Virus record (IMG/VR): IMGVR_UViG_3300023049_000209
Span: 1 to 61,484 of that record
Length of the DNA: 61,484 bases
Origin: a virus
Direction: 5' to 3' (one strand)
Part shown: piece by piece, positions 12,197 through 59,689 of the stretch
How the letters are laid out: each line of letters starts with the position of its first letter
Position numbering within the stretch: the first letter of the stretch is position 1
Notes under the pieces: generated by a model
What the model was told of the DNA's origin: nothing
The model's database searches: none
What the model saw: only the letters and a program-made list of their open reading frames with translations
Position numbers and translations under genes: made by a program

Positions 12197-13804
12197 TCAT
12201 TTGCTAATTGAATATTTGTAATTACCAACACCATATATTTTGTAGATTCCCATAGATTTAGTTATTTCATTCTCTGTCATGTTTGGATCATATCCTAATT
12301 TTACTAGTTTAGCTTTGTTAAAATTATAACGATGTAGTCTGATACCTCTCTTTATATAGTGGTAGTTAATGCTAGTTTCTTTTATAAATTCAAATCCAAT
12401 ACTCTCGTAGAAAGATTTAAATCCGAAAGACTTGTCATAATATGAGATAAGTTCTTTAAAATCAAAATTATTTTTAAAAAATTTTAATAATTTTGATGCA
12501 CCACCAATAACAGAATGGTTTATTTTATTGCAAAATCTATGTAATTCATAAACATCCATGCTATTCTTATTCATAAATACTCTATTTCTACCAAACGACA
12601 TAAGACTTACCAAATCATTATTATAATAAAGACCAATGTTTGTCTTAGATTTAGAACTACCCTTTAGGTGGTTATCCTCTAAAAAGCGGTTAGCTATTTT
12701 GCTAGGAACATATTCCACCTTACACTTTCTTCCAAAGATTTTATTCTCTACATTTTTTCCTAACTTATTCTTTATAACAGATTTAATTATATCGTTTTTG
12801 TATAACCAATCATCTTCCCAAATTTGAAATAATTCAATTCCTAAATCTTTACACATTTTGTGTTTATTAAAATGGTAATCTTTTGGTTTATGCATCTCAT
12901 TGTGCCAATATAATCCATTAAACTCAATAGCTATTTTTAGGTCTGGGATATAAAAGTCTAATTCTAATGGCTTTATTATCCCTCTAGTATTTGTTAATAT
13001 CTGACCATCATATATACTTTCCAAAAAGTTTAAAACTTTTGATTCATAGCTTGATTTAGAAGATAGTAGTGGATTGCATAATGTACATATATCCATGTTT
13101 AATTGAAGCCTGTTTGATAATAAAAATTTATTTATACTAAATGTCTTATTACAAGATTCACAAACAATATCATATATACTATTATCAAGGGATATAACAT
13201 CTAAGTCATATTTATCTTTATAATGATTTTTATACTGTTTAATCCAATTTTCTTTACTTTTTTTACCTATTTTATCCTTAACAATATTTGACTTTGATGG
13301 ATTATCAACACCATATTTCTTTATGTTAGTTTTCTTTATTTTATCAATTATCTTTTTATTTGAGAAAACATTATCAACACCATATTTAGTAAGAACAGAT
13401 TGTTTTATAACTTGTTTACCTTTCTTAGAACTTAAATAATATTCGTTATCATATTTATCTAAATTAGTTTTCTTAACTCTGCTTTCATACTCATTTGTTT
13501 TAGAATAATGTTCTACACCCCAATTCTCTTTAGAGGTTTTCTTAACCTTATCTTGTGAACACTTTGAACTACAAGAATAATAACCAGCATTAGATATATT
13601 TTTAATATATTTTTGATACATTATCTGTGTCTCTTTACCACATACATCACATATACAACTAACTTTCTGATGACTACCACTAGTTAGAAAAGATATTGGT
13701 ATATCCAAATAATCCCCTATTTTTAAATCTTTATTCTTACATTCTCTTAATCTTTTAATATTCCTTGTATTTGCTTTTATTCTAACTTCTTTGCTTTTTA
13801 TCAT
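12197..13804 (-). CDS. free-standing homing endonuclease 1 (Vsr-like, LERYG-repeat family)
   Basis: A 535-residue protein with four parts. An N-terminal Cys cluster (CICDVCGKE, CSSKC at about residues 49-83) looks like a zinc finger. About five tandem 23-residue repeats of the form KKTNIKKYGVDNPSKS follow at about 90-205. A nuclease region at about 275-335 reads ELDFYIPDL, AIEFNGLYWH, YHFNKHK, IWEDDW, resembling Vsr/EDxHD-type PD-(D/E)xK homing enzymes. A C-terminal domain at about 355-530 (FLEDNHLKG, VIGGASKLLKFF, FYESIGFEF) resembles GNAT acyltransferases. Two paralogs lie at 53.3 and 58.0 kb. It sits between the amidoligase-like gene and the 13927 gene. Confidence 0.75.
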   Translation of the reverse strand: MIKSKEVRIKANTRNIKRLRECKNKDLKIGDYLDIPISFLTSGSHQKVSCICDVCGKETQIMYQKYIKNISNAGYYSCSSKCSQDKVKKTSKENWGVEHYSKTNEYESRVKKTNLDKYDNEYYLSSKKGKQVIKQSVLTKYGVDNVFSNKKIIDKIKKTNIKKYGVDNPSKSNIVKDKIGKKSKENWIKQYKNHYKDKYDLDVISLDNSIYDIVCESCNKTFSINKFLLSNRLQLNMDICTLCNPLLSSKSSYESKVLNFLESIYDGQILTNTRGIIKPLELDFYIPDLKIAIEFNGLYWHNEMHKPKDYHFNKHKMCKDLGIELFQIWEDDWLYKNDIIKSVIKNKLGKNVENKIFGRKCKVEYVPSKIANRFLEDNHLKGSSKSKTNIGLYYNNDLVSLMSFGRNRVFMNKNSMDVYELHRFCNKINHSVIGGASKLLKFFKNNFDFKELISYYDKSFGFKSFYESIGFEFIKETSINYHYIKRGIRLHRYNFNKAKLVKLGYDPNMTENEITKSMGIYKIYGVGNYKYSISK

Positions 13805-29221: not shown

Positions 29222-30538
29222 TTACCATGGAAAATCATCACCATCATCGTGAATATCTCCCAAATCATCATCGACATTTTTCTTTTTATTTGGTGACATA
29301 CCAAACCCAGAGAATATATCCATTACCACTGATAACCTTTTGGTTATTTCAGGCATCCCTAGTGGCTCTATAATAGAATTTATAGGTGATAGTATAGACT
29401 TAGAAAATTGTGTATCATAGTCAATCTCTGGTGCTATTTCGATAGGATAAGATCCTCTTATATAAGCAAACATACCTGTTATCTTTTTATCCTTACAAAC
29501 ATAGTACTTTATTTTAGTCCCAGATTTTATAAACTCGTACTTATTTTGTAGTGACTTGTTCTCGTTTAATAGATAGTTGTGATGTGCTGCCGACTTGACT
29601 GCAAAATGTGCACCACTTACAAATTGAAGTGGTAACGACTTATCGTTTATAACCTTAACATCATATTTAGAAACGGAAGATTGCATTGATATATCATCAA
29701 TATCTGCTAATTCAAACTCATTTCTAAGGTCTTTAACTAATCTTAACAAATCCTTTATATTAAATGTATCTGGGTGAGAAAATAAATACTTTACAATATC
29801 AACAATCTTAGTTCTAGCAAATGCGGGTGTTGATGATCTAACTAATTCAACACCTTTTGGGAATATATAATCCATTCTTTCATAAGGAATTCCATCTTCG
29901 AATAATATGTGTTGGATATACTTTTTCTTAGCTATATTGATAATAGACTCTGATATTCTTTCTAATTCAAAATCTTCTTTATTCTCAACACCATAACTAT
30001 CAGCATGTTCATCAAGCATTTGTTTGAAGAAGTTAGCAAATCTTATTTGGTCAATCCCGTTGATAAAGTCAACTTCATTAGACCAGTTCCAGATTAGATT
30101 ATCACCAAAGTTCATGTCTTTAACAATTTTTACTATATCTCTGTTATTAGAGTAAAACCCATCCATTAAAATTAAATCATGTGGCTTTTTTAAAAGTTCT
30201 TCAAATTTATCAATATCATCTTCCGTGTTATTATTAGATATAATCTTCCCAACTAAATTTGGATTGTCTATATCTAGTTTAGTTCTTGATAATACTATGA
30301 ATGGTTTATCAATAGAGTTTAAATACTCTTTGTTAAATACTTTATTTTTCCAATCACAGTGATCCATACATGGTTTGAATGATACAAAAATTGAATCTGT
30401 GTTATGTACTAATATATCATTTGCTATGAAGGTATGTGATTCGTCTTCCATTTCTAAATCATATACGTATTCATCCTCAAAGCTTCCAATTTCTTCTACA
30501 CTTTCAATTTCTAAAAGTTTATAATTTTCTTTTTTCAT
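29222..30538 (-). CDS. DNA polymerase B C-terminal fragment with split-intein C half
   Basis: 438 residues. Residues 1-46 are the C-terminal half of an intein: block F VYDLEMEDESHTFIANDILVHN, ending in the conserved His-Asn. Residue 47 onward is the polymerase: TDSIFVSF completes the YGDTDS catalytic motif. KKKYIQHILFEDG and FPKGVELVRSSTPAFARTK form the rest of the palm and thumb, ending in an acidic DDFPW tail likely to bind the clamp. Protein trans-splicing with the product of the next ORF upstream should join YGD to TDS. A terminator follows. Inactive alone because motif C is incomplete. Confidence 0.85.
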   Translation of the reverse strand: MKKENYKLLEIESVEEIGSFEDEYVYDLEMEDESHTFIANDILVHNTDSIFVSFKPCMDHCDWKNKVFNKEYLNSIDKPFIVLSRTKLDIDNPNLVGKIISNNNTEDDIDKFEELLKKPHDLILMDGFYSNNRDIVKIVKDMNFGDNLIWNWSNEVDFINGIDQIRFANFFKQMLDEHADSYGVENKEDFELERISESIINIAKKKYIQHILFEDGIPYERMDYIFPKGVELVRSSTPAFARTKIVDIVKYLFSHPDTFNIKDLLRLVKDLRNEFELADIDDISMQSSVSKYDVKVINDKSLPLQFVSGAHFAVKSAAHHNYLLNENKSLQNKYEFIKSGTKIKYYVCKDKKITGMFAYIRGSYPIEIAPEIDYDTQFSKSILSPINSIIEPLGMPEITKRLSVVMDIFSGFGMSPNKKKNVDDDLGDIHDDGDDFPW

Positions 30539-30567: not shown

Positions 30568-31146
30568 TTAATTATGTATTATAACTCTATCACCACTTTT
30601 TAATTCCTTTGGTTTTATTTCCATTTTTTCACCATTTCTAAAAACAATTAGGGAATGATCTTCTGTTATAATGATTTCCTTACCACCACTCTTTATTTTC
30701 CATTTCTTTTTAGAAGTTTTGTGTCTAATTATATTCTTCACCTTAGAATAATGTATTTTTTCATCATCAGTCCAATTTAATGACTTAAAGTTAACAGGTA
30801 TAACTTCTTTATCTTTTCTGATAGATAATTTATTTTGTTTATCATAAAGATCTTTTATCGTAAATTTACCCTCTAGTGTATTTATAATGGACTTCCCATC
30901 TACACTATCACCATATATACTAACTGGTTCTTTTTCAGATATTTGTGTTACATTATCAATGTATAGTTTTTTATGCAATTCAAAGTCTAAGTGCCATTGT
31001 TTGTACCAATAGTCCTCATTATCTTTGTCCATCTTTTTTGTAAGTTCCCTACCTTCTGATGTAATAGTACCAGCAACGTGGTTATTATATAAGATAAAGT
31101 AAGGAGCAGCAAAAGCACCATAGCTTCCGTTTAATACTAATTTTAG
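30568..31146 (-). CDS. DNA polymerase B motif-B/palm fragment with split-intein N half
   Basis: The frame encodes KLVLNGSYGAFAAPYF (motif B), a linker, then YGD and the intein N half. From its only good ATG (31032, 154 residues) translation would start after motif B and be useless; reading from 31146 needs entry from the short upstream ORF across the 38-nt insert. The intein starts at Ser (SVDGKS, block A), has block B with TEDH (GGKEIIITEDHSLIVF) and spans about 112 residues; no endonuclease domain. The stop is 29 nt before the ORF with the C half. Polymerase and intein assignments are strong; the mode of expression is inferred. Confidence 0.8.
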   Translation of the reverse strand, partial: LKLVLNGSYGAFAAPYFILYNNHVAGTITSEGRELTKKMDKDNEDYWYKQWHLDFELHKKLYIDNVTQISEKEPVSIYGDSVDGKSIINTLEGKFTIKDLYDKQNKLSIRKDKEVIPVNFKSLNWTDDEKIHYSKVKNIIRHKTSKKKWKIKSGGKEIIITEDHSLIVFRNGEKMEIKPKELKSGDRVIIHN

Positions 31147-31184
31147 TCATCCACCCCCCCTAAATAAATTAGCGGGGGTTAACA
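31147..31184 (-). other. 38-nt hairpin insert in the polymerase gene, bypass candidate
   Basis: Between codons CTT (Leu, 31185-31187) and CTA (Leu, 31144-31146) lies a 38-nt insert beginning TGT TAA. It then holds CCCCCGCTAA, which pairs with TTAG and the run of seven G residues (10-bp stem, one mismatch), and ends TGGATGA. Removing it gives LQLALKLVLNGSYGAF, the expected polymerase sequence. There is no U-run, so it is not an intrinsic terminator. The layout (matching leucine codons, stop beside the take-off site, hairpin, G-rich sequence before landing) resembles T4 gene 60 bypassing. Confidence 0.55.
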
Positions 31185-31283
31185 AAGAGCAAGCTGTAAG
31201 GCGTTGTAGTAATCAACTTCCTTTTTTAGCTTGCTCGCTTGTTTTTTCAATGACTCTATTTCTTTTTTGGTTTCAGCCTTCAT
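31179..31283 (-). CDS. DNA polymerase B fingers fragment (short ORF)
   Basis: 34 codons, MKAETKKEIESLKKQ then DYYNALQLALC and stop. The segment YNALQLAL is the conserved end of the polymerase fingers helix just before motif B. An in-frame stop upstream (about 31307) shows that translation starts here, so the N-terminal exonuclease and first palm part of the polymerase must be encoded elsewhere. A T4-late-like TATAAATA lies about 25 nt upstream. It is probably the start of the second polymerase polypeptide, as in split gene 43A/43B phages. Confidence 0.65.
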   Translation of the reverse strand: MKAETKKEIESLKKQASKLKKEVDYYNALQLALC

Positions 31284-31347: not shown

Positions 31348-32100
31348 TCATAAATTTTTATTAATTTCTAATCTTTTCAATATAATATTATAATACTCTA
31401 TTTCCTTTTCAATGACTATATAATTTCTTTCTAAGTTCTCACACGCAACGGCAACTGTTCCACTACCCGCTACATTATCTAATACTAAGTCATCCTTATT
31501 TGTATACGATTTTATGAAAAACTCTATAAGTTTTAACGGCTTTTGTGTTGGGTGTATAGTTCCATTTAATTTGCTTTTTTGCTTATCAGAAGGGAATATC
31601 TGTACACTTCTAGGATACCTTATTGTTTCACCACCCCCACTTACATCTTTATCTACCTTCCCATATATTTTTGTCTTATTCTGAACAGATGCTTTCTTAG
31701 TATATGAATTCATAGGTTTATGCCCATTTGTCATCTGTGGATTGTAAGTTGGTAGTTTTTTGTAAAATACCAAAATATTCTCATGCGATTTCATAGGCAT
31801 TTTCTTTGCATTAAAAAACCCAGTAGATTGTGTTTTCTCCCATATCCATTCATATCTTAGCATTTCTAAATTAGAGCTTCCCAAAACTTTATCAAATGGT
31901 GTCTGAGCAAACAATAATATAGCACCATCATCTTTGATTATTCTCTTATATTCTAACCATAGTTTATCTAGTGGTAAAATACAATCCCACTTACACTTAG
32001 TAGTCCCATATGGTAAATCTGCAAATATCAAGTCTATACTTTTACTTGCTATATTTGGCATATAGTCAAAACAGTCGCCGTGTATTACTTTTTTATTCAT
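31348..32100 (-). CDS. DNA methyltransferase (N6-adenine/N4-cytosine type)
   Basis: A 250-residue enzyme. Motif IV is DLPYG at about residues 29-33; motif I is NVAGSGTVAVA at about 212-222; HPTQKPLKLIEFFI at about 190 is the usual conserved segment between them. This order (IV before I) is that of the beta class. VIHGDCFDYMP at the start is typical. It methylates DNA using S-adenosylmethionine; the target sequence cannot be read here. No restriction partner is adjacent, so self-protection or regulation is likely. Its ATG overlaps the preceding stop by 8 nt, so translation is coupled. Confidence 0.85.
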   Translation of the reverse strand: MNKKVIHGDCFDYMPNIASKSIDLIFADLPYGTTKCKWDCILPLDKLWLEYKRIIKDDGAILLFAQTPFDKVLGSSNLEMLRYEWIWEKTQSTGFFNAKKMPMKSHENILVFYKKLPTYNPQMTNGHKPMNSYTKKASVQNKTKIYGKVDKDVSGGGETIRYPRSVQIFPSDKQKSKLNGTIHPTQKPLKLIEFFIKSYTNKDDLVLDNVAGSGTVAVACENLERNYIVIEKEIEYYNIILKRLEINKNL

Positions 32101-33828: not shown

Positions 33829-33861
33829 CAAATACAAGTTTTGAAAATAATATATAGTATT

Positions 33862-34683
33862 ATGATAAAGAAATATTTAAATTTTATAAACGAAAGTAAA
33901 GACTCTGATAATATAAATGCTAAGATGCAGGAGTTGAGTGATTTGTTGAAAAACTCTACAAATGGATCTGACCTTATGTATCAATGGGAAGGGGATAATG
34001 ATAATGAACTAATTGTAAATTTTGTGATAGATGATAACCCAATAAGATTTGAGTTTGAGATTGATGATTTGTTTATGATGAAGATTGTTGGGAATAAAAT
34101 AGATTTTAGTAAAAAGGTATCTTCTGTTGATGAAGGTCTTTCTATGATAGAGAAAGAGATACAACAATTGATAGGTGTTATGGAAGATAGAAAAACTTTA
34201 ATTAAATTTCAAGATTTTTCGAAAAATGAGTCCAAAGGAAACACTGCAACTGATAAAAAACTTTGGCAGAAAGCACTTAGATGGGTTAAGGGAACTAGAC
34301 ACGGTGGTGTTGCATCTGTTAGACACAAAGGCGAGACATACGACTCTCCGAATGATGGTAAAGGCTTTGATGTATATCCTAGTGCTTACTCAAATGGTGC
34401 AGCAGTTAAAAAATATAATAGTTGGGGTGGTTCTTGGAAGAAGAATGAAGCTCTAGACAAATGGTTTGACGATGATTGGGTTAGAATAGATACACAAGGT
34501 AATATAGCAGGATCTTGTGGGAGTATGCCAGAAGGAAAAAGTATACAAAGGTGTTTACCTAGGAAAAAAGCCGAGTCATTATCAAAGAGTGAAAGAAAGG
34601 CTACTGTTACCAAAAAGATTAAAGCTGGTAAGAAAGGTAAAAAAAGTGTTAGTAATACAAAGAAGGCAAAGGTTAAGAGTTAA
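33862..34683 (+). CDS. DUF5872-like protein, possible internal head protein
   Basis: A 273-residue protein using the ATG at 33862, which gives MIKKYLNFINESKDS, nearly identical in pattern to the T4 capsid-targeting peptide. A second copy of the motif occurs inside (IKFQDFSKNES at about 115). Residues about 170-240 (FDVYPSAYSNGAAVKKYNSWGG, LDKWFDDDWVRI, SCGSMPEGK, RCLPRKKAESLS) match a DUF5872-like domain known from phages and large viruses; its function is unknown. The tail is Lys-rich (VTKKIKAGKKGKKSV). Head packaging is inferred. Confidence 0.65.
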   Translation: MIKKYLNFINESKDSDNINAKMQELSDLLKNSTNGSDLMYQWEGDNDNELIVNFVIDDNPIRFEFEIDDLFMMKIVGNKIDFSKKVSSVDEGLSMIEKEIQQLIGVMEDRKTLIKFQDFSKNESKGNTATDKKLWQKALRWVKGTRHGGVASVRHKGETYDSPNDGKGFDVYPSAYSNGAAVKKYNSWGGSWKKNEALDKWFDDDWVRIDTQGNIAGSCGSMPEGKSIQRCLPRKKAESLSKSERKATVTKKIKAGKKGKKSVSNTKKAKVKS

Positions 34684-49782: not shown

Positions 49783-51210
49783 ATGGCAACTAAATTAATA
49801 GCAGATATCGTAGAAGCACCTACAATTAAATTAACATCAGGAGCAGTAGATGGTTACTTTTTAAAAACAGACTCTGATGGAAACGCAACATGGACACCAA
49901 TATCTGCATCACAAGTTTATAAAGGCACTTGGGACGCAGATACAAATACTCCTACTTTAGCAGATAGTACAGGCGTTCAAGGACATTACTATAGAGTTAC
50001 AACAGCAGGTACTTCTGATTTAGACGATTCAGGAAGTTCTGGATATAGGTCTATATCATATGATGTTGGAGATGACGTTATTCACAATGGTACTTTTTGG
50101 GAGAGGATACCAGGTGTAGGTTATACCCTACAAACAGCAACGGATGCAGTTCTAGGAGGTGTAAAAATTGGTAGTGGAGTTATTATTTCAAACGGTATTA
50201 TTTCTGTAAGTACGGATGCAGAAACTTTAGATGGTTTTGATAGTACGAATTTTGTTAGGGCGACTGGAAGTGTAGTTGAAACTATTAATGGTGAGAAGAC
50301 TTTTTCTAATAAAATTTTAATACCAAATGGATCTGGTATTAAGGGTTCTACTGAAACAGGTCTTCCAGGAAGTAATAGCTCTTCTTTTTATTCATTTTAT
50401 CAATCTAACGGAACAACACGCAAAGGTTATATTGGATTTCCTATAACTATGTTCTCGGATCTTAGCATACGAAATGATGCTTCTAACAAATCTCTAACTT
50501 TAAGAGAAAACGGTAATTTGGATTATAATGGCGATGTTACAGCACAAAACTTTATTGGAAATGGATCACAGATTACAAATGTAGATGCTGCAACTTTAGA
50601 TAGTTTAGATAGTACAGATTTTGTAAGAAGTACTGGAAATACCAGTCAAAATGTTAATGGAAATAAGACATTTTTAAATAAAGCATTACTACCTAATCAA
50701 AGTGGAACTAAAGGAGCAGGAATAGGAAGTAATAGCTCTTCTTTTTATTCATTTTATCAATCTAACGGAACAACACGCAAAGGTTATATTGGATTTACTA
50801 CAGGTACGAACTCGGATCTTAGCATAGGAAATGATGCTTCTAACAAATCTCTAACTTTAAGAGAAAACGGTAATTTGGATTATAATGGTGATTTTACAGC
50901 AGATAACTTTTTCGAAGGCTCTGACAAAAGGCTTAAAACCAATATTAAAAAGATATCAAAATCAGTATATTCTTATGAATTAAAAACTCAACCAGGAATT
51001 ACTGTATATGGTACTATAGCTCAAGAAATAGAAAAAACAAATCCAGGAGTTGTTAAGAAACCAGAAGACGGTGGAATGATGTCTGTTAATTATAATAGTT
51101 TCTTATCTCTAAAACTTGCAGAGCAGGAAAATGAGAATAAAGAGCAAAATAATAAGATAGATAGCTTACAACAGCAAATAGACGAATTAAAGGAACTAAT
51201 AAAAAACTAG
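49783..51210 (+). CDS. tail fibre with C-terminal S74 intramolecular chaperone
   Basis: A 475-residue protein. Residues about 385-475 form a Peptidase_S74 domain: SDKRLKTNIKKISKSVYSYE, TVYGTIAQEIEKTNPGVV, VNYNSFLSLKLAEQ, then a coiled coil. In endosialidase-type tailspikes this domain folds the trimer and cuts itself off at the serine before DKR, using a Ser-Lys pair. Earlier, a GFDSTNFVRATGSVVETINGEKTF block occurs twice, matching an internal 165-bp DNA repeat (50369-50533 and 50726-50890). Receptor-binding fibre. Confidence 0.8.
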   Translation: MATKLIADIVEAPTIKLTSGAVDGYFLKTDSDGNATWTPISASQVYKGTWDADTNTPTLADSTGVQGHYYRVTTAGTSDLDDSGSSGYRSISYDVGDDVIHNGTFWERIPGVGYTLQTATDAVLGGVKIGSGVIISNGIISVSTDAETLDGFDSTNFVRATGSVVETINGEKTFSNKILIPNGSGIKGSTETGLPGSNSSSFYSFYQSNGTTRKGYIGFPITMFSDLSIRNDASNKSLTLRENGNLDYNGDVTAQNFIGNGSQITNVDAATLDSLDSTDFVRSTGNTSQNVNGNKTFLNKALLPNQSGTKGAGIGSNSSSFYSFYQSNGTTRKGYIGFTTGTNSDLSIGNDASNKSLTLRENGNLDYNGDFTADNFFEGSDKRLKTNIKKISKSVYSYELKTQPGITVYGTIAQEIEKTNPGVVKKPEDGGMMSVNYNSFLSLKLAEQENENKEQNNKIDSLQQQIDELKELIKN

Positions 51211-51299
51211 CGGAAACGGTGGGTGTCGATCCCACTCGCCCTTTTACAGACCTACTGGTTTAGCAAACCAGCCTCTTTGCCAACATTGAGTACGCTTCC
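51211..51299 (-). tRNA. tRNA-Ser (GCT)
   Basis: Full cloverleaf on the minus strand: acceptor GGAAGCG/CGTTTCC, anticodon loop TTGCTAA between CTGGT and ACCAG, long variable arm as in tRNA-Ser, T-arm GTGGGATCGACACCCAC. CCA is not encoded. Last of the seven tRNAs in transcription order. Confidence 0.85.
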
Positions 51300-51311
51300 A
51301 TTAAAATTATG

Positions 51312-51401
51312 CGGAAGATGTGGGATTCGAACCCACACGCCCTAAAGCAAACGGTTTTCAAGACCGTCTCCGCTACCCAGAATCTTTCGGATAAATCTTC
51401 C
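51312..51401 (-). tRNA. tRNA-Ser (TGA)
   Basis: Acceptor GGAAGAT/ATCTTCC, anticodon stem ACGGT/ACCGT with loop CTTGAAA (anticodon TGA), long variable arm, T-arm with GGTTCGAATCC. The D-arm is slightly unusual. It reads TCA serine codons. Confidence 0.85.
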
Positions 51402-51410
51402 ATAATTAGT

Positions 51411-51480
51411 AGTTCTAAGAGGATTCGAACCCCTATCTCTCGGTCCGTAGCCGAGTATTCTATCCGTTGAAATATAGAAC
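51411..51480 (-). tRNA. tRNA-Arg (ACG)
   Basis: Anticodon stem CTCGG/CCGAG with loop CTACGGA (anticodon ACG, normally edited to ICG). T-arm GGGGTTCGAATCCTC. Acceptor GTTCTAT/TTAGAAC with a mismatch in the last pair. Slightly degenerate but plausible. Confidence 0.75.
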
Positions 51481-51481
51481 T

Positions 51482-51512
51482 AAAAAAGCCTTTCAAATAA
51501 ATTCGAAAGGCT
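51482..51512 (-). terminator. minus-strand hairpin terminator
   Basis: AGCCTTTC and GAAAGGCT form an 8-bp stem followed by T6 on the minus strand, between tRNA-Arg and the micro-ORF at 51534. Confidence 0.65.
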
Positions 51513-51533
51513 AATAATATTTTTAAAAAATAA

Positions 51534-51605
51534 TTACACACACAATCGAATCTCTTTCGAAATTATTAAGCGACTTGAACTACTCGATGTGTTTATAAGT
51601 TTCAT
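51534..51605 (-). CDS. possible micro-ORF inside the tRNA cluster
   Basis: Twenty-three codons, MKLINTSSSSSRLIISKEIR, with a promoter-like AATATATAGTATA directly upstream and a terminator directly downstream. It has the same arrangement and a similar start (M-x-x-INT) as the micro-ORF at 52023. Sequence may alternatively be a decayed tRNA (ACACAT/GTGTGT ends). Confidence 0.3.
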   Translation of the reverse strand: MKLINTSSSSSRLIISKEIRLCV

Positions 51606-51636
51606 TATACTATATATTATTTTTATTAAACTCTAG

Positions 51637-51708
51637 CACGGACGGAGAATTTCGAAATCTCATCTACGATTTTGGAGATCGTTATTCTAGCCTTTGAACT
51701 ACGTCCGT
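51637..51708 (-). tRNA. tRNA-Trp (CCA)
   Basis: Acceptor ACGGACG/CGTCCGT, anticodon stem ACGAT/ATCGT with loop CTCCAAA (anticodon CCA), T-arm GAGATTTCGAAATTCTC. Full cloverleaf. Confidence 0.9.
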
Positions 51709-51717
51709 ATTATTTAG

Positions 51718-51791
51718 GGTGTATGAGGGGTTTCGAACCCCCGACCTTTGGCACCACAAGCCAACGCTCTACCTACTGAGCTACACACACC
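51718..51791 (-). tRNA. tRNA-His (GTG)
   Basis: Acceptor GTGTGTG/CATACAC with the extra G-1 facing C73, as in bacterial histidine tRNAs; anticodon loop TTGTGGT (GTG); T-arm GGGGGTTCGAAACCCC. Confidence 0.9.
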
Positions 51792-51802
51792 ATTTAATAT
51801 TG

Positions 51803-51875
51803 TGGAGAAGGTGGGGTTCGAACCCACGACACCTTGGTCTTCAACCAAGTGCTCTACCTACTGAGCTACTACTCC
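51803..51875 (-). tRNA. tRNA-Phe (GAA)
   Basis: Anticodon stem CTTGG/CCAAG with loop TTGAAGA (GAA), D-arm GTAGCTCAGTAGGTAGAGC, T-arm GTGGGTTCGAACCCCAC, acceptor GGAGTAG/CTTCTCC with one mismatch. Confidence 0.9.
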
Positions 51876-51880
51876 ATGTG

Positions 51881-51955
51881 TAATCCTGGTGGGGTTCGAA
51901 CCCACGACCCTCTGTTTAAAAGACAGATGCTCTAAACCAACTGAGCTACAGAATT
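51881..51955 (-). tRNA. tRNA-Lys (TTT)
   Basis: Anticodon stem TCTGT/ACAGA with loop CTTTTAA (TTT), D-arm GTAGCTCAGTTGGTTTAGAGC, T-arm GTGGGTTCGAACCCCAC, acceptor AATTCTG/CAGGATT. First tRNA of the cluster in transcription order; suits the AAA-rich phage. Confidence 0.9.
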
Positions 51956-53279: not shown

Positions 53280-55196
53280 ATGGTCAAGACTGAAAAAATT
53301 ACTATAAAAAGAAGAAATTGTTATAAACTAAAATTATATACAGAGTTAGGTTATAATGTAAATGATGATGAGTTTGTAATTGATATAACACACCTCAATA
53401 AAGGTTCTAGGATAAACATATCAGTATTGTGTGATAATTGTAATATTTCAAAAGAAATGCCTTATAAGGACTATAATCGCTTTAATACATATCCTAAATA
53501 TACTTGCCCTAAGTGTAAAAGAAAGGAAACAAATGTAAATAGGTATGGTAAAGAGTATGTTGGTGCAGTAGAAGAATTTAAGGAAAAGACAAAGAAGACC
53601 AATTTAGAAAAGTATGGATTCGAATATCCTAATAAATCTAAAGGTGTGAAAGATAGAATAAAAGAAACTAACTTAGAAAGATATGGTGTTGATAACACTT
53701 TTAAGTCAAGTGTTATCAAAAATAGAATAAAAGAAACTAACTTAGAAAGATATGGATTCGAATATTATTCTAAAACTGATGAGTATAATGATAAGGTAAA
53801 GAGCACTACTTTAGAAAGACATGGTGCTGAACATTATTCTAGAACAATTGAATATAAGACTAGAACAGAAAGTACTAATTTAGAAAGATATGGAGTAACA
53901 AACCCTATGATGTTAAGAGAAAATAAGGATAAAGTAAGAGATACTTTTAATGAAAGGTATGGTGGATTTACACTAAATTCAGAAGTACTTATTAACAAAG
54001 TTAAATGTACTAATTTGGAAAGATATGGTGTTGAATATTATTCTAAAACTGATGAGTATAAAAATAAAGTTAAAAGTACTAATTTAGAAAGATGGGGTAA
54101 CGAGTATTACACAAAAACAGATGACTATAAGGTAAAGTCTAGGAAAACTTTCCATAATAATTGGGGCGCAAACCATACTCATTTATCATCATTATATAGA
54201 AAAAATAATTTTAAAATAGATAATGATGGTAGTTTTATAGAATACATAGGGGAAAGTATGTCAAGGTTTAAATGTGATTTAGGTCATAATTTTGAAATTA
54301 GTTGCACAAACTTTACAGACAGAAAAAAAAATAACATACCACTCTGTACTGTTTGTCATCCAATAGGTAACTCTACTTCATTAAAAGAGATTGAGTTATA
54401 TGACTATATAAATTCAATTTACAATGGAAAAATTATACAATCCTATAAAGATGGTTTAGAGATTGATATATATCTTCCCGAGTTAAATTTAGGATTTGAG
54501 TTTAATGGAATATATTGGCATTGTGATAAATATAAGGATAAATATTACCATATAAACAAAACGAAACATTTTAAGGACAAAGGGATTAGGATTATACACA
54601 TATGGGAAGATGATTGGGTAGATAGGAAATATATAATAAAAAGCCAAGTGAGAAATTGGCTAGGTTTAGTACGTAGTAAGATATGGGGTAGAAAATGTGA
54701 GATAAAAGAAGTTGATTATAATATATCTAGTTTGTTTTTAGAGAAAAACCATATACAAGGAAGTAATAAATCTTCTTTGAAGGTAGGATTATATCATGAA
54801 GGTGTATTAGTAAGCCTTATGTGTTTTGATCATTTTGAGGGTAGAAAAAAAATGCTTGATAACCATTGGAATATAAGTAGGTTTTGTAATTCATTAGATA
54901 CGTCCGTAGTTGGTGGTGCTAGTAAACTATTTAAATATTTTATAAGGAAATACTCACCTGAAAGAGTAGTGAGTTATTCTGATTTAGATTGGAGTCAAGG
55001 TGATATATATTATAAGTTGGATTTCAGTATGGTTAAGATTATAAAACCAGATTATAAATATTTGGTTGGTAAGGAAAGAAAACACAAATCTAATTTTAGA
55101 AAATCTAGAACTAGTATAAGTGAATCTAAATTAGATTTGCACAAAATTTGGGACTGTGGTAAATATAAGTTTGAGATTAATTTAAAAAATAAGTAA
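53280..55196 (+). CDS. free-standing homing endonuclease 2 (Vsr-like, LERYG-repeat family)
   Basis: A 638-residue paralog of homing endonuclease 1. It has an N-terminal zinc site (CDNC, CPKC at about 39-79) and then about nine tandem 23-residue repeats of the type KETNLERYGVDNTFKSSVIK (about 85-300). The nuclease region at about 395-455 reads EIDIYLPEL, GFEFNGIYWH, YHINKTKHFKDKGI, IWEDDW. A C-terminal GNAT-like domain follows at about 475-630 (FLEKNHIQGS, VVGGASKLFKYF, YYKLDFSM). It has the most repeats of the three. It lies directly after the nucleotidyltransferase gene and 5 bp before the next gene, so it was inserted cleanly between two plus-strand genes. Confidence 0.75.
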   Translation: MVKTEKITIKRRNCYKLKLYTELGYNVNDDEFVIDITHLNKGSRINISVLCDNCNISKEMPYKDYNRFNTYPKYTCPKCKRKETNVNRYGKEYVGAVEEFKEKTKKTNLEKYGFEYPNKSKGVKDRIKETNLERYGVDNTFKSSVIKNRIKETNLERYGFEYYSKTDEYNDKVKSTTLERHGAEHYSRTIEYKTRTESTNLERYGVTNPMMLRENKDKVRDTFNERYGGFTLNSEVLINKVKCTNLERYGVEYYSKTDEYKNKVKSTNLERWGNEYYTKTDDYKVKSRKTFHNNWGANHTHLSSLYRKNNFKIDNDGSFIEYIGESMSRFKCDLGHNFEISCTNFTDRKKNNIPLCTVCHPIGNSTSLKEIELYDYINSIYNGKIIQSYKDGLEIDIYLPELNLGFEFNGIYWHCDKYKDKYYHINKTKHFKDKGIRIIHIWEDDWVDRKYIIKSQVRNWLGLVRSKIWGRKCEIKEVDYNISSLFLEKNHIQGSNKSSLKVGLYHEGVLVSLMCFDHFEGRKKMLDNHWNISRFCNSLDTSVVGGASKLFKYFIRKYSPERVVSYSDLDWSQGDIYYKLDFSMVKIIKPDYKYLVGKERKHKSNFRKSRTSISESKLDLHKIWDCGKYKFEINLKNK

Positions 55197-58010: not shown

Positions 58011-58047
58011 AAAAAAAGCCAAATAATGATTTATTTGGCTTTTTTTT
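58011..58047. terminator. bidirectional terminator after the tail tube gene
   Basis: AAAAAAAGCCAAATAA and its complement pair around TGAT, with T8 downstream. It also overlaps the end of the convergent homing endonuclease 3. Confidence 0.85.
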
Positions 58048-59689
58048 GTTTTAATAATTCATATTTTATTTTACCACAATCATAAACTTTGTAAATATTA
58101 TTAGATTTTGTATATTCACTCTCTGTCATAGATGTTTTAATATTACTATTCTTATAGTTGGACTTATGAACCCTCTTACCATTTACAATATATTTATAAT
58201 CTGGCTTTGTGATATACTTTTCTTTAAAGCCAAGCTGTTCGTATAAATTACCATCACTCCAATAGTAATCTGCATAGCTTATAATTCTAATTGGACTCTT
58301 CTCATTTATGAAATGTTTTAGTAATTTAGAAGGTGCACCAACTATATTATGGTATGTTTTAGAACAGTATCTGTTTAAATTCCAACCACCTTCTTCCATT
58401 TTCTTTCTCCCCTCAAATTTATCGAACGTCATAATAGAAACCAATTCGTCATTATAAAACAAACCTATTTTATATACACTATTACATGTACCTTGTATAT
58501 GGTTTTCGTTTAGAAATATAGATGAAGCTTTAGTACATATTTCCTTAACAATGCATTTTCTAGCATATACTCTATTTTCTATTTTGTTAAGATTATATAG
58601 TATTTGAGATTTTATTATTTCCTTTCTATCTACCCAATCATCTTCCCATATATGTATAATCCTTATCCCTCTGTCCTTAAAATAGTTCTTCTTTACAATA
58701 TGATAGTTATTCTTTTTAAACTTGTTAGAGTGGTAATAAAGACCGTTAAATTCAAAGCCTATGCTAAGTTCTGGTATGTAAACATCTATTTCGTATTTAT
58801 CCCTATAATTCTTAACAACATTATGTGATGATATGCTTTTGGCATATTCATATAGTTCTTTTTCCTTAATGGAATCTAAGTCAGAAATAGGACTACATAC
58901 AGTGCATAACTTATTAGAATTATAAAGCCTACCAAAGTAATTATCAGTGCTTATATCAAAGGTGTGTAATTTATCATCATCACACTTAAATTTACTTATA
59001 CCATTACCTAGATACTTTACATATAAATTGTTTTTACACATTTCAAAGTTCTCTCCTCTATAATTCTCTCCACCAAAGCAAGAACCAGAATTGTATTTAC
59101 CCATCATTGTTTTAGAAAACTTTTCTTTGAACTCATCCGTTTTAGAGTAGTGGGAAACTCCATACTTTTTAAATGATGTGTTTCTAGATATTATATTATA
59201 TTTTTCAGTCTTTGTAAATGAATCAACACCATACTTTTTAAGATATGTTTCTTTAGACTTATTTACATAGTCTTTGGTTTTGGAATAGTTGTCAACACCA
59301 TATTTATCCAAACTAGTTTTTTTATATTTTTCTTTAAACTCATCAGTTTTAGAGTAGTGGGAAACTCCATACTTTTCTTCAATTGTATTTTTTGCCTTTT
59401 CTTTAACACTTGGTGAGTTGGAAGAACATTTGTTAGAACAATATTCTTTATATCCACCTTTCCAAGATTGTCCAAATGATACCTTATTACCACAGTAGCA
59501 TTTTATGAAATTAGTGTTATTATAAACCCAATGCCAAATTCTTTGTTTAAATGAGAAATCCTTATCCCTAGTTATATCTATTATTTGATCAAATACTATT
59601 GGATAATGTTTGCTTACATAAGATTCTTTAATCCTATTAGGTGAATTTTTTAATACATTCTCTATAAAGTATAATCTTTCTTTTTCCAT
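58031..59689 (-). CDS. free-standing homing endonuclease 3 (Vsr-like, LERYG-repeat family)
   Basis: A 552-residue paralog of endonucleases 1 and 2. N-terminal Cys cluster CYCGNK, CSNKC at about 60-89. Five tandem 23-residue repeats (KNTIEEKYGVSHYSKTDEFK type) lie at about 95-205. The nuclease part at about 300-360 reads EIDVYIPEL, GFEFNGLYYH, YHIVKKNYFKDRGI, IWEDDW. The GNAT-like C-terminus at about 380-530 reads FLNENHIQGT, IVGAPSKLLKHF, LYEQLGFKEKY. The stop codon lies within a terminator shared with the tail tube gene. Inserted between the tail tube and hub-assembly genes. Confidence 0.75.
   Translation of the reverse strand: MEKERLYFIENVLKNSPNRIKESYVSKHYPIVFDQIIDITRDKDFSFKQRIWHWVYNNTNFIKCYCGNKVSFGQSWKGGYKEYCSNKCSSNSPSVKEKAKNTIEEKYGVSHYSKTDEFKEKYKKTSLDKYGVDNYSKTKDYVNKSKETYLKKYGVDSFTKTEKYNIISRNTSFKKYGVSHYSKTDEFKEKFSKTMMGKYNSGSCFGGENYRGENFEMCKNNLYVKYLGNGISKFKCDDDKLHTFDISTDNYFGRLYNSNKLCTVCSPISDLDSIKEKELYEYAKSISSHNVVKNYRDKYEIDVYIPELSIGFEFNGLYYHSNKFKKNNYHIVKKNYFKDRGIRIIHIWEDDWVDRKEIIKSQILYNLNKIENRVYARKCIVKEICTKASSIFLNENHIQGTCNSVYKIGLFYNDELVSIMTFDKFEGRKKMEEGGWNLNRYCSKTYHNIVGAPSKLLKHFINEKSPIRIISYADYYWSDGNLYEQLGFKEKYITKPDYKYIVNGKRVHKSNYKNSNIKTSMTESEYTKSNNIYKVYDCGKIKYELLKQKKAK

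Follow-up and report, generated by a model that had tools for sequence, protein, structure and literature searches.

A hairpin-bearing insert of about 40 nucleotides in a phage DNA polymerase gene and its relatives in terminase genes, probable elements of translational bypass

The window analysed here, a stretch of 61,484 nucleotides (nt) from a giant bacterial virus, positions 1 to 61,484 of virus record IMGVR_UViG_3300023049_000209 (IMG/VR), carries on its minus strand a short insert in PolC, the C-terminal half of a split family-B DNA polymerase, at the position of motif B. Comparison with related loci makes it very probable that this insert is a programmed translational-bypass element, to be skipped by the ribosome. 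It is one of a large family, with 63 loci found so far, representing 41 distinct sequences in 11 gene/site classes; 20 of the 41 lie in PolC and the others mainly in genes for the terminase large subunit (TerL). All follow one general design. The take-off codon is mostly followed by one further codon and a stop; a C5/G5 hairpin comes next, and the landing codon as a rule lies 5-9 nt beyond it.

The insert and the genes that carry it

The initial annotation had described a short open reading frame (ORF), a 38-nt break and then a frame beginning with motif B, and this is borne out by reading the window beside its intact relative. The frame KLVLNGSYGAFAAPYF opens at 31143 on the minus strand, and in locus L004 (record G003), the reference by which the 41-nt insert is defined, QLALKLVLNGSYGAF stands in one unbroken frame. 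The insert consists, in order, of TGT TAA, a C5/G7 hairpin, seven bases and CTA (Table 1), with the synonymous leucine codons CTT and CTA at its edges; the proposal of a skipped, non-coding insert between two leucine codons is likewise supported by the comparison. The GC-rich hairpin also holds up, in that the 44 nt containing it fold at -19.4 kcal/mol (z -3.44, with 1 of 200 shuffles equally good) and its 24-nt core has a single match in the window and no match in any of 100 shuffles at up to 3 mismatches. PolC is the sole split gene among the ORFs of at least 60 codons from W01 and G003 that were set against the window; a second break in PolC, between G003 and the window, is the 506-nt region of a split intein. 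A 9-nt inverted repeat beside the take-off site was set aside, because a similar pairing is seen, by eye, in L004, which has no insert.

Table 1. Features of the PolC locus in the window (positions are those of the window).
Feature	Position	Strand	Remarks
ORF1	31185..31283	-	ATG at 31283; 33 codons, reads MKAETKKEIESLKKQASKLKKEVDYYNALQLAL, ends ...NALQLAL at motif B
Presumed take-off codon CTT	31185..31187	-	Leu33 of ORF1, which is Leu32 by L004 numbering; same element as L083
Insert	31144..31184	-	41 nt, not present in intact relatives
Gap proper	31147..31184	-	38 nt
In-frame TAA	31179..31181	-	Second codon after take-off CTT, behind TGT
C5/G7 hairpin	31154..31178	-	CCCCCGCTAATTTATTTAGGGGGGG; from fold and pattern; inner stem pairs co-vary across elements
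Spacer TGGATGA	31147..31153	-	7 nt, from G run to landing codon
Presumed landing codon CTA (Leu)	31144..31146	-	Precedes motif B frame
ORF2	30907..31143	-	KLVLNGSYGAF...SIYGD; polymerase motif B to YGD
Split intein, N-terminal half	30568..30906	-	SVDGKSI...IIHN, stop; Pfam Intein_splicing E 3.6e-11, above cut-off; absent from L004
Split intein, C-terminal half	30401..30538	-	Own ATG; Pfam Intein_splicing E 1.5e-6, below curated cut-off
C-extein of PolC	29222..30400	-	TDSIFVSFKP... to stop; by homology
N6/N4 DNA methylase gene	31348..32100	-	Pfam PF01555 E 2.5e-32; occupies the slot of the DUF7487-type gene of 8 other carriers; none there in L004

The family-B polymerase of this phage group is encoded by two separate genes, and the start of the gene must therefore be corrected: the approximately 33 codons ahead of motif B are the natural beginning of PolC, intact homologues having their start close to the same point. 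Between PolC and the gene for the exonuclease and palm part the distance is about 100 kb in W01, about 130 kb in W02 and about 10 kb in W03; within the 61-kb window only the PolC part finds a match. PolC is intact and uninterrupted in L004 and in its nearest named records, those of uncultured phages of 635 kb and 642 kb (LR745206.1, W01, and LR756502.1, W02). The downstream frame does carry motif B, as had been described, but ORF2 is itself in two pieces, because it runs into the split intein at YGD/TDS (here and below a slash marks the site). No intein is present at motif B, where stops lie inside the insert. The split intein, at 30906-30401 of the minus strand, comprises two ORFs 29 nt apart, and extra sequence at YGD/TDS is also seen in L093, L102 and L103. 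With the insert, the split intein and the two-gene polymerase taken together, a working subunit would therefore need bypass, protein trans-splicing and subunit pairing.

The initial annotation had proposed that relatives with and without the insert be sought. A search with intact PolC proteins gave 42 loci, 23 of which (by tblastn and reading) have an insert of the same design and 18 of which read on unbroken, including three distant ones (26-36% identical) judged by one unbroken match; the remaining locus, L090, begins inside the gene. Four insert sites are seen around motif B, after Ala31, Leu32, Val35 and Tyr40 in L004 numbering. Each of the 17 carrier records searched has the pattern CCCCCN{8,22}GGGGG at PolC, and the 9 insert-free records are devoid of it; three further such places away from PolC, in carriers G009, G013 and G017, appear by eye to be two terminator-like structures between genes and one lying within an ORF, and did not enter the count of elements. 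The 20 distinct PolC elements comprise 18 from the protein search and two, L158 and L277, from DNA scans. Duplicate PolC rows (L069, L089, L095) and L435, whose element is that of L462, were left out before counting, and the window is not counted apart from L083. L107 and L110, two of the seven stretches from one search, are without the C5/G5 hairpin and were excluded from the counts.

The same design was found by DNA-pattern scans, one of which yielded 80 of at least 119 stretches, in several TerL families; Walker A, Walker B and motif B serve here as labels for what we take to be these motifs. In the first terminase family the element lies at Walker A, after Ser (GGTSSS/KTF), Ala (GGTSA/GKT) or Gly (GGTSAG/KTY). 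It follows Ala in the second family (GGAA/GGGKS) and Arg in its distant relative, the third (YGGAIR/GGK); in the fourth it follows Cys, ahead of Walker B (ANASC/VIYDEL). One small ORF, resembling one of Pelagibacter phages, also bears it. Set against the intact genes of Flavobacterium phages 11b and FpV9, Cellulophaga phage phi10:1, PV036458.1 and HTVC115P, the junctions are gap-free in the 37 columns displayed. Named relatives of the carriers' genes belong to phages infecting Flavobacterium, Cellulophaga and Tenacibaculum, as well as Pelagibacter in the case of the small ORF and many bacteria in that of the fourth terminase family. A scan of bacterial genomes that took in 80 of at least 114 stretches gave 82 matches, and the best 60 of these included no clear element; the pattern hits L260, L298 and L422 seem fortuitous.

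Matched codons, a conserved hairpin and changing frames

For each element, take-off was placed at the final codon of ORF1 still in agreement with the conserved protein, and landing at the triplet immediately ahead of the remaining protein sequence. So defined, the two codons begin with the same two bases in 36 of the 41 distinct elements and are synonymous in 34; outside the Tyr40 class, both figures are 34 of 34. Counted by class, the codons match in 10 of 11 (with Leu, Ala, Val, Ser, Gly, Cys and Arg represented), and none of 100,000 permutations was as good, while shifting the landing site 1-6 nt upstream reduces the matches to 0-3 of 41. The spacing is similarly constant, with the C run beginning 6 nt past the take-off codon in 40 of 41 elements and 5-9 nt separating the G run from the landing codon in 39. 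Of the 20 distinct PolC elements, 18 have a stop as the first or second codon of the gap, two of them (L067, L103) as the very first. Canonical pairs make up 95 of 100 inner stem positions, versus a mean of 49.6 when arms are swapped between elements (0 of 20,000 permutations as good), with the 3' arm set at the best-fitting G run, which introduces a slight bias toward pairing. The element of L084 has a longer stem, of 17 pairs including the stop codon, at -34.5 kcal/mol.

These matched edges bear on whether the insert is instead cut from the mRNA, as a new kind of miniature intron of about 40 nt with one hairpin, leaving a continuous message for the ribosome. Such removal would also account for the conserved hairpin, the exact restoration of the protein, the indifference to frame described below and a mobility with endonuclease neighbours. 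It predicts no synonymous edge codons, yet these are what 10 of the 11 site classes have, and it gives no role to the stop just past the edge. The window contains no Rfam intron match at the gathering threshold, only tRNAs, and near the insert the only two hits at E <=1 are both to unrelated families and under their cut-offs. Known self-splicing introns are also far longer than about 40 nt. A spliced element, for which the initial annotation had allowed, is the main rival, although no intron family matches it. RNA-level excision would account for most of the facts but leaves the codon matching unexplained, and is considered improbable.

The gap is 33-45 nt long, and over the 41 elements its length leaves a remainder of 0, 1 or 2 on division by three in 12, 22 and 7 cases respectively. 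The relative frame of the two ORFs has also changed among close relatives. In the Ser-type TerL set (28 full-length loci with 24 distinct downstream sequences) 13 sequences have a 36-nt gap and 11 a 37-nt gap, and the tree calls for 6 switches between the two lengths, 5 of them forced by well-supported branches. Over 236 of the 276 pairs in this set the ratio of nonsynonymous to synonymous substitution rates (dN/dS) has a median of 0.072 and a maximum of 0.19, the other 40 pairs being saturated in dS; among pairs of PolC carriers it is 0.015-0.13 in 7 of 8, the eighth being saturated. By these comparisons the flanks of the element evolve as one conserved protein despite their changing relative frame, which excludes readthrough and frameshifting as general mechanisms. 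Translation of the insert by readthrough or by a single frameshift at take-off would be feasible in the 16 of 41 elements whose gap is open in the downstream frame; it was rejected on account of the frame switches and the stops, since the gap is closed in the other 25, the window included, and close relatives with 36 and 37 nt would need different frames. About 12 additional residues would moreover land in a catalytic motif, and this possibility is hardly credible.

The same data bear on whether the interrupted genes are dead or the insert an assembly error, both of which had been raised in the initial annotation. The carriers are all metagenomic contigs, with no isolate having the element seen, as either would allow. 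An assembly error is contradicted by the many loci that have the insert, 63 of them on different contigs and including a second strain: G001, with 8 mismatches to the window over 39,356 bases, has it, and so does G002, a separate strain whose long blocks are 95.4-99.6% identical to the window and whose insert is 42 nt long because its hairpin has 8 Gs, one more than the 7 of the window. A dead gene is contradicted by the strong purifying selection in carriers, dN/dS being far below 1. No second copy of motifs B and C was found at E <=0.01 in 15 carrier records (of up to 464,605 bases, and perhaps incomplete). Next to no credence can be given to either explanation.

It might also be supposed that ORF1 terminates and ORF2 restarts in or after the insert, the separate polypeptides assembling in trans. 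The polymerase is already encoded in two genes, with a split intein here in addition, and an ATG occurs in some frame within the gap of 11 of the 20 distinct PolC elements. Nine PolC gaps lack one, and that of the window, which overlaps a TGA, is out of frame with motif B; re-initiation at the insert ATG was accordingly rejected, the frame being wrong and the ATG not conserved. The break between the polypeptides would sit in motif B, in the P-loop or next to Walker B, and neither ungapped junctions nor matched codons would be expected. Separate polypeptides are therefore very unlikely.

Bypassing is favoured because matched codons and frame indifference are both seen, a phage precedent exists and the gaps fall within the range of sliding in T4. 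Several observations nonetheless weigh against it. In the Tyr40 class (7 distinct elements) TAT or TAC faces AGC, AAC, AAC, AAC, GAC, TAA and TAA, none of them a Tyr codon; the class, which accounts for all five mismatches and for two TAT/TAA half-matches, is unexplained. (That minimal re-pairing can suffice is indicated by the title of a paper cited in review PMC3014915.) Two of the 20 PolC elements have no stop in the first two codons, and the hairpin of L430 is weak, with 1 of 4 inner pairs canonical. At Leu32-like sites the ORFs overlap by one residue, and the codon pair one upstream, which is mismatched (GCT versus TGA, and others), would yield the same protein. A 2-nt target duplication at insertion could itself yield matched codon starts, against which speaks the variation of the spacers adjoining the landing codon while the codon persists. 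The landing site was first chosen by codon match in L426, L430, L462, L466 and L467; homology later agreed with it for L426, L430 and L467, of which last L462 and L466 are close copies. Because the TerL scans prescribed the bases flanking the hairpin, ahead of its C run and behind its G run, the stop and the start of the spacer were in part preset for the TerL elements. Finally, where T4 gene 60 has the KKYK nascent-peptide signal, no shared motif was noticed here in upstream peptides read by eye.

A model of the bypass and its known counterparts

If the insert is bypassed, the ribosome would make 33 residues of PolC and halt with peptidyl-tRNA-Leu on CTT, with TGT and TAA next and the hairpin beginning 6 nt on. 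Pairing of codon and anticodon on CTT would then break, the ribosome would slide across 38 nt, and re-pairing on the leucine codon CTA would be followed by AAA TTA GTA, leaving the ancestral QLAL-KLVLNGSYGAF unchanged. In the T4 system sliding is efficient up to about 56 nt, according to PMC11194080. The G run, mostly 5-9 nt before the landing codon, may aid landing by pairing with the anti-Shine-Dalgarno sequence of 16S rRNA; such help has been proposed for a GAG in T4 gene 60, as outlined in PMC3014915, and by analogy the G run may act like it.

The closest known system is the 50-nt bypass of T4 gene 60 together with the homing-endonuclease gene mobA, as described in PMC5009743, PMC11194080, PMC3014915 and PMC2988022. 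The likeness to it that had been suggested stands as far as function is concerned, and does not extend to the layout. In T4 gene 60 the GGA is followed at once by UAG, whereas here one sense codon usually comes before the stop (TGT before TAA in the window), and the stem-loop of gene 60 includes the take-off codon and stop, whereas here the hairpin starts 6 nt past the take-off codon. The gene 60 gap is 47 nt plus the landing GGA, compared with 33-45 nt here. Unlike the single case in T4, many elements here share one design across several genes, with codons often synonymous rather than identical.

Further counterparts lie outside T4. Prevotella loescheii, for example, is a member of the Bacteroidota. 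Its adhesin gene provides a reported 29-nt hop in a bacterium, and a bypass tied to a UUA codon has been suspected in Streptomyces phage Hau3, there too in a phage terminase, both being known here by description in PMC5009743. According to the same review, the byp elements of Magnusiomyces capitatus mitochondria are likewise many short inserts skipped by ribosomes, with landing codons not always matched; they differ in being mitochondrial, with relaxed decoding and seemingly free of mRNA context, whereas the elements here occur in bacterial viruses, with a fixed hairpin and with HNH- or DUF7487-type neighbours. For bacterial systems, work on efficient bypassing of tens of nt has centred on T4 gene 60, and review PMC3014915 describes it as apparently confined, among T4-related phages, to this gene. 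Apart from the suspected Hau3 terminase, a literature search confined mostly to openly accessible sources brought up no earlier description of elements of this kind in the polymerase or terminase genes of phages.

Mobility, neighbouring genes and significance

In the favoured explanation the elements are mobile, and a link to free-standing genes for homing endonucleases next to the host gene is probable. The site labels require 16 changes on the PolC tree of 43 rows, compared with a mean of 21.6 after shuffling, and none of 200 shuffles was as low. L080 and L086 are identical in the tree columns, with loci 92% identical in DNA and one amino-acid change counted over the C-extein, yet have the element at different sites, after Ala31 and Tyr40 respectively, and the element-free L076 is the sister of L079 (support 92/87). 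In loci L067-L103 the bases flanking the Leu-site elements (such as GCTCGCTCTT and GACTAAAATTAGT) seem by eye to resemble one another more closely than the gene does elsewhere, which co-conversion in homing would lead one to expect.

A DUF7487-type gene lies directly upstream of PolC, on the opposite strand, in 8 of 16 non-duplicate carriers versus 0 of 10 empty loci (Fisher p 0.009, relatedness ignored); three of the 16 carrier loci (L080, L093, L103) hold just about 1 kb upstream. These neighbours are probably endonucleases, a role that counts as inference because 4 of the 6 proteins scanned match Pfam DUF7487, a function-unknown family, and none of the 6 an HNH family in Pfam; their ends look HNH-like by eye. 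At terminase genes the case is firmer. In 11 of 36 TerL loci an HNH-type gene closely precedes the take-off codon, the match ending 49-88 nt upstream of it, and HNH_3 was matched in all four neighbour proteins scanned; two TerL loci hold less than 800 nt upstream. Against the link stands the lack of any HNH or DUF7487-type neighbour in half of the PolC carriers and in 25 of the 36 TerL loci, the TerL count covering carriers only. The window itself has no neighbouring HNH homing-endonuclease gene, the methylase of Table 1 occupying that slot. It does contain three large genes matching Pfam DUF7487, at 12197-13804 (minus), 53280-55196 (plus) and 58031-59689 (minus), which are probably free-standing homing endonucleases; one of them has a sub-threshold match to a restriction-enzyme family. 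Elsewhere, the homologue of window 33841-34683 in G003 (at about 40820-40521) shows a break of about 307 nt when compared with the window, possibly a further insert, and seven tRNA genes are clustered at 51210-51955 (minus) of the window.

In T4, mobA is located near gene 60, an arrangement like that of the HNH-terminase loci; the mobA cassette is reportedly known from the work of Bonocora and colleagues. Homing introns and inteins likewise sit at catalytic motifs, have endonuclease neighbours and are patchily spread, whereas the insert here is of about 40 nt, non-coding and matched by no intron model. Its presence would destroy the cleavage site of a homing endonuclease, and bypassing it would keep the essential gene alive; the T4 gap, too, is possibly protective against cleavage, a suggestion made in review PMC5009743.

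It seems likely that mobile "translational introns" of about 40 nt are widespread in phages, spreading with or by homing endonucleases, residing in catalytic motifs of essential genes and rendered harmless by ribosome jumping; T4 gene 60 would then be one relic of a general strategy. Gene finders split or miss genes interrupted in this way. The 41 distinct elements vary in codon, spacer, stem and frame, so that comparison and simple reporters can be used to test what governs take-off and landing. If the proposal is true, homing endonucleases would have a means of persisting in essential genes additional to introns and inteins.
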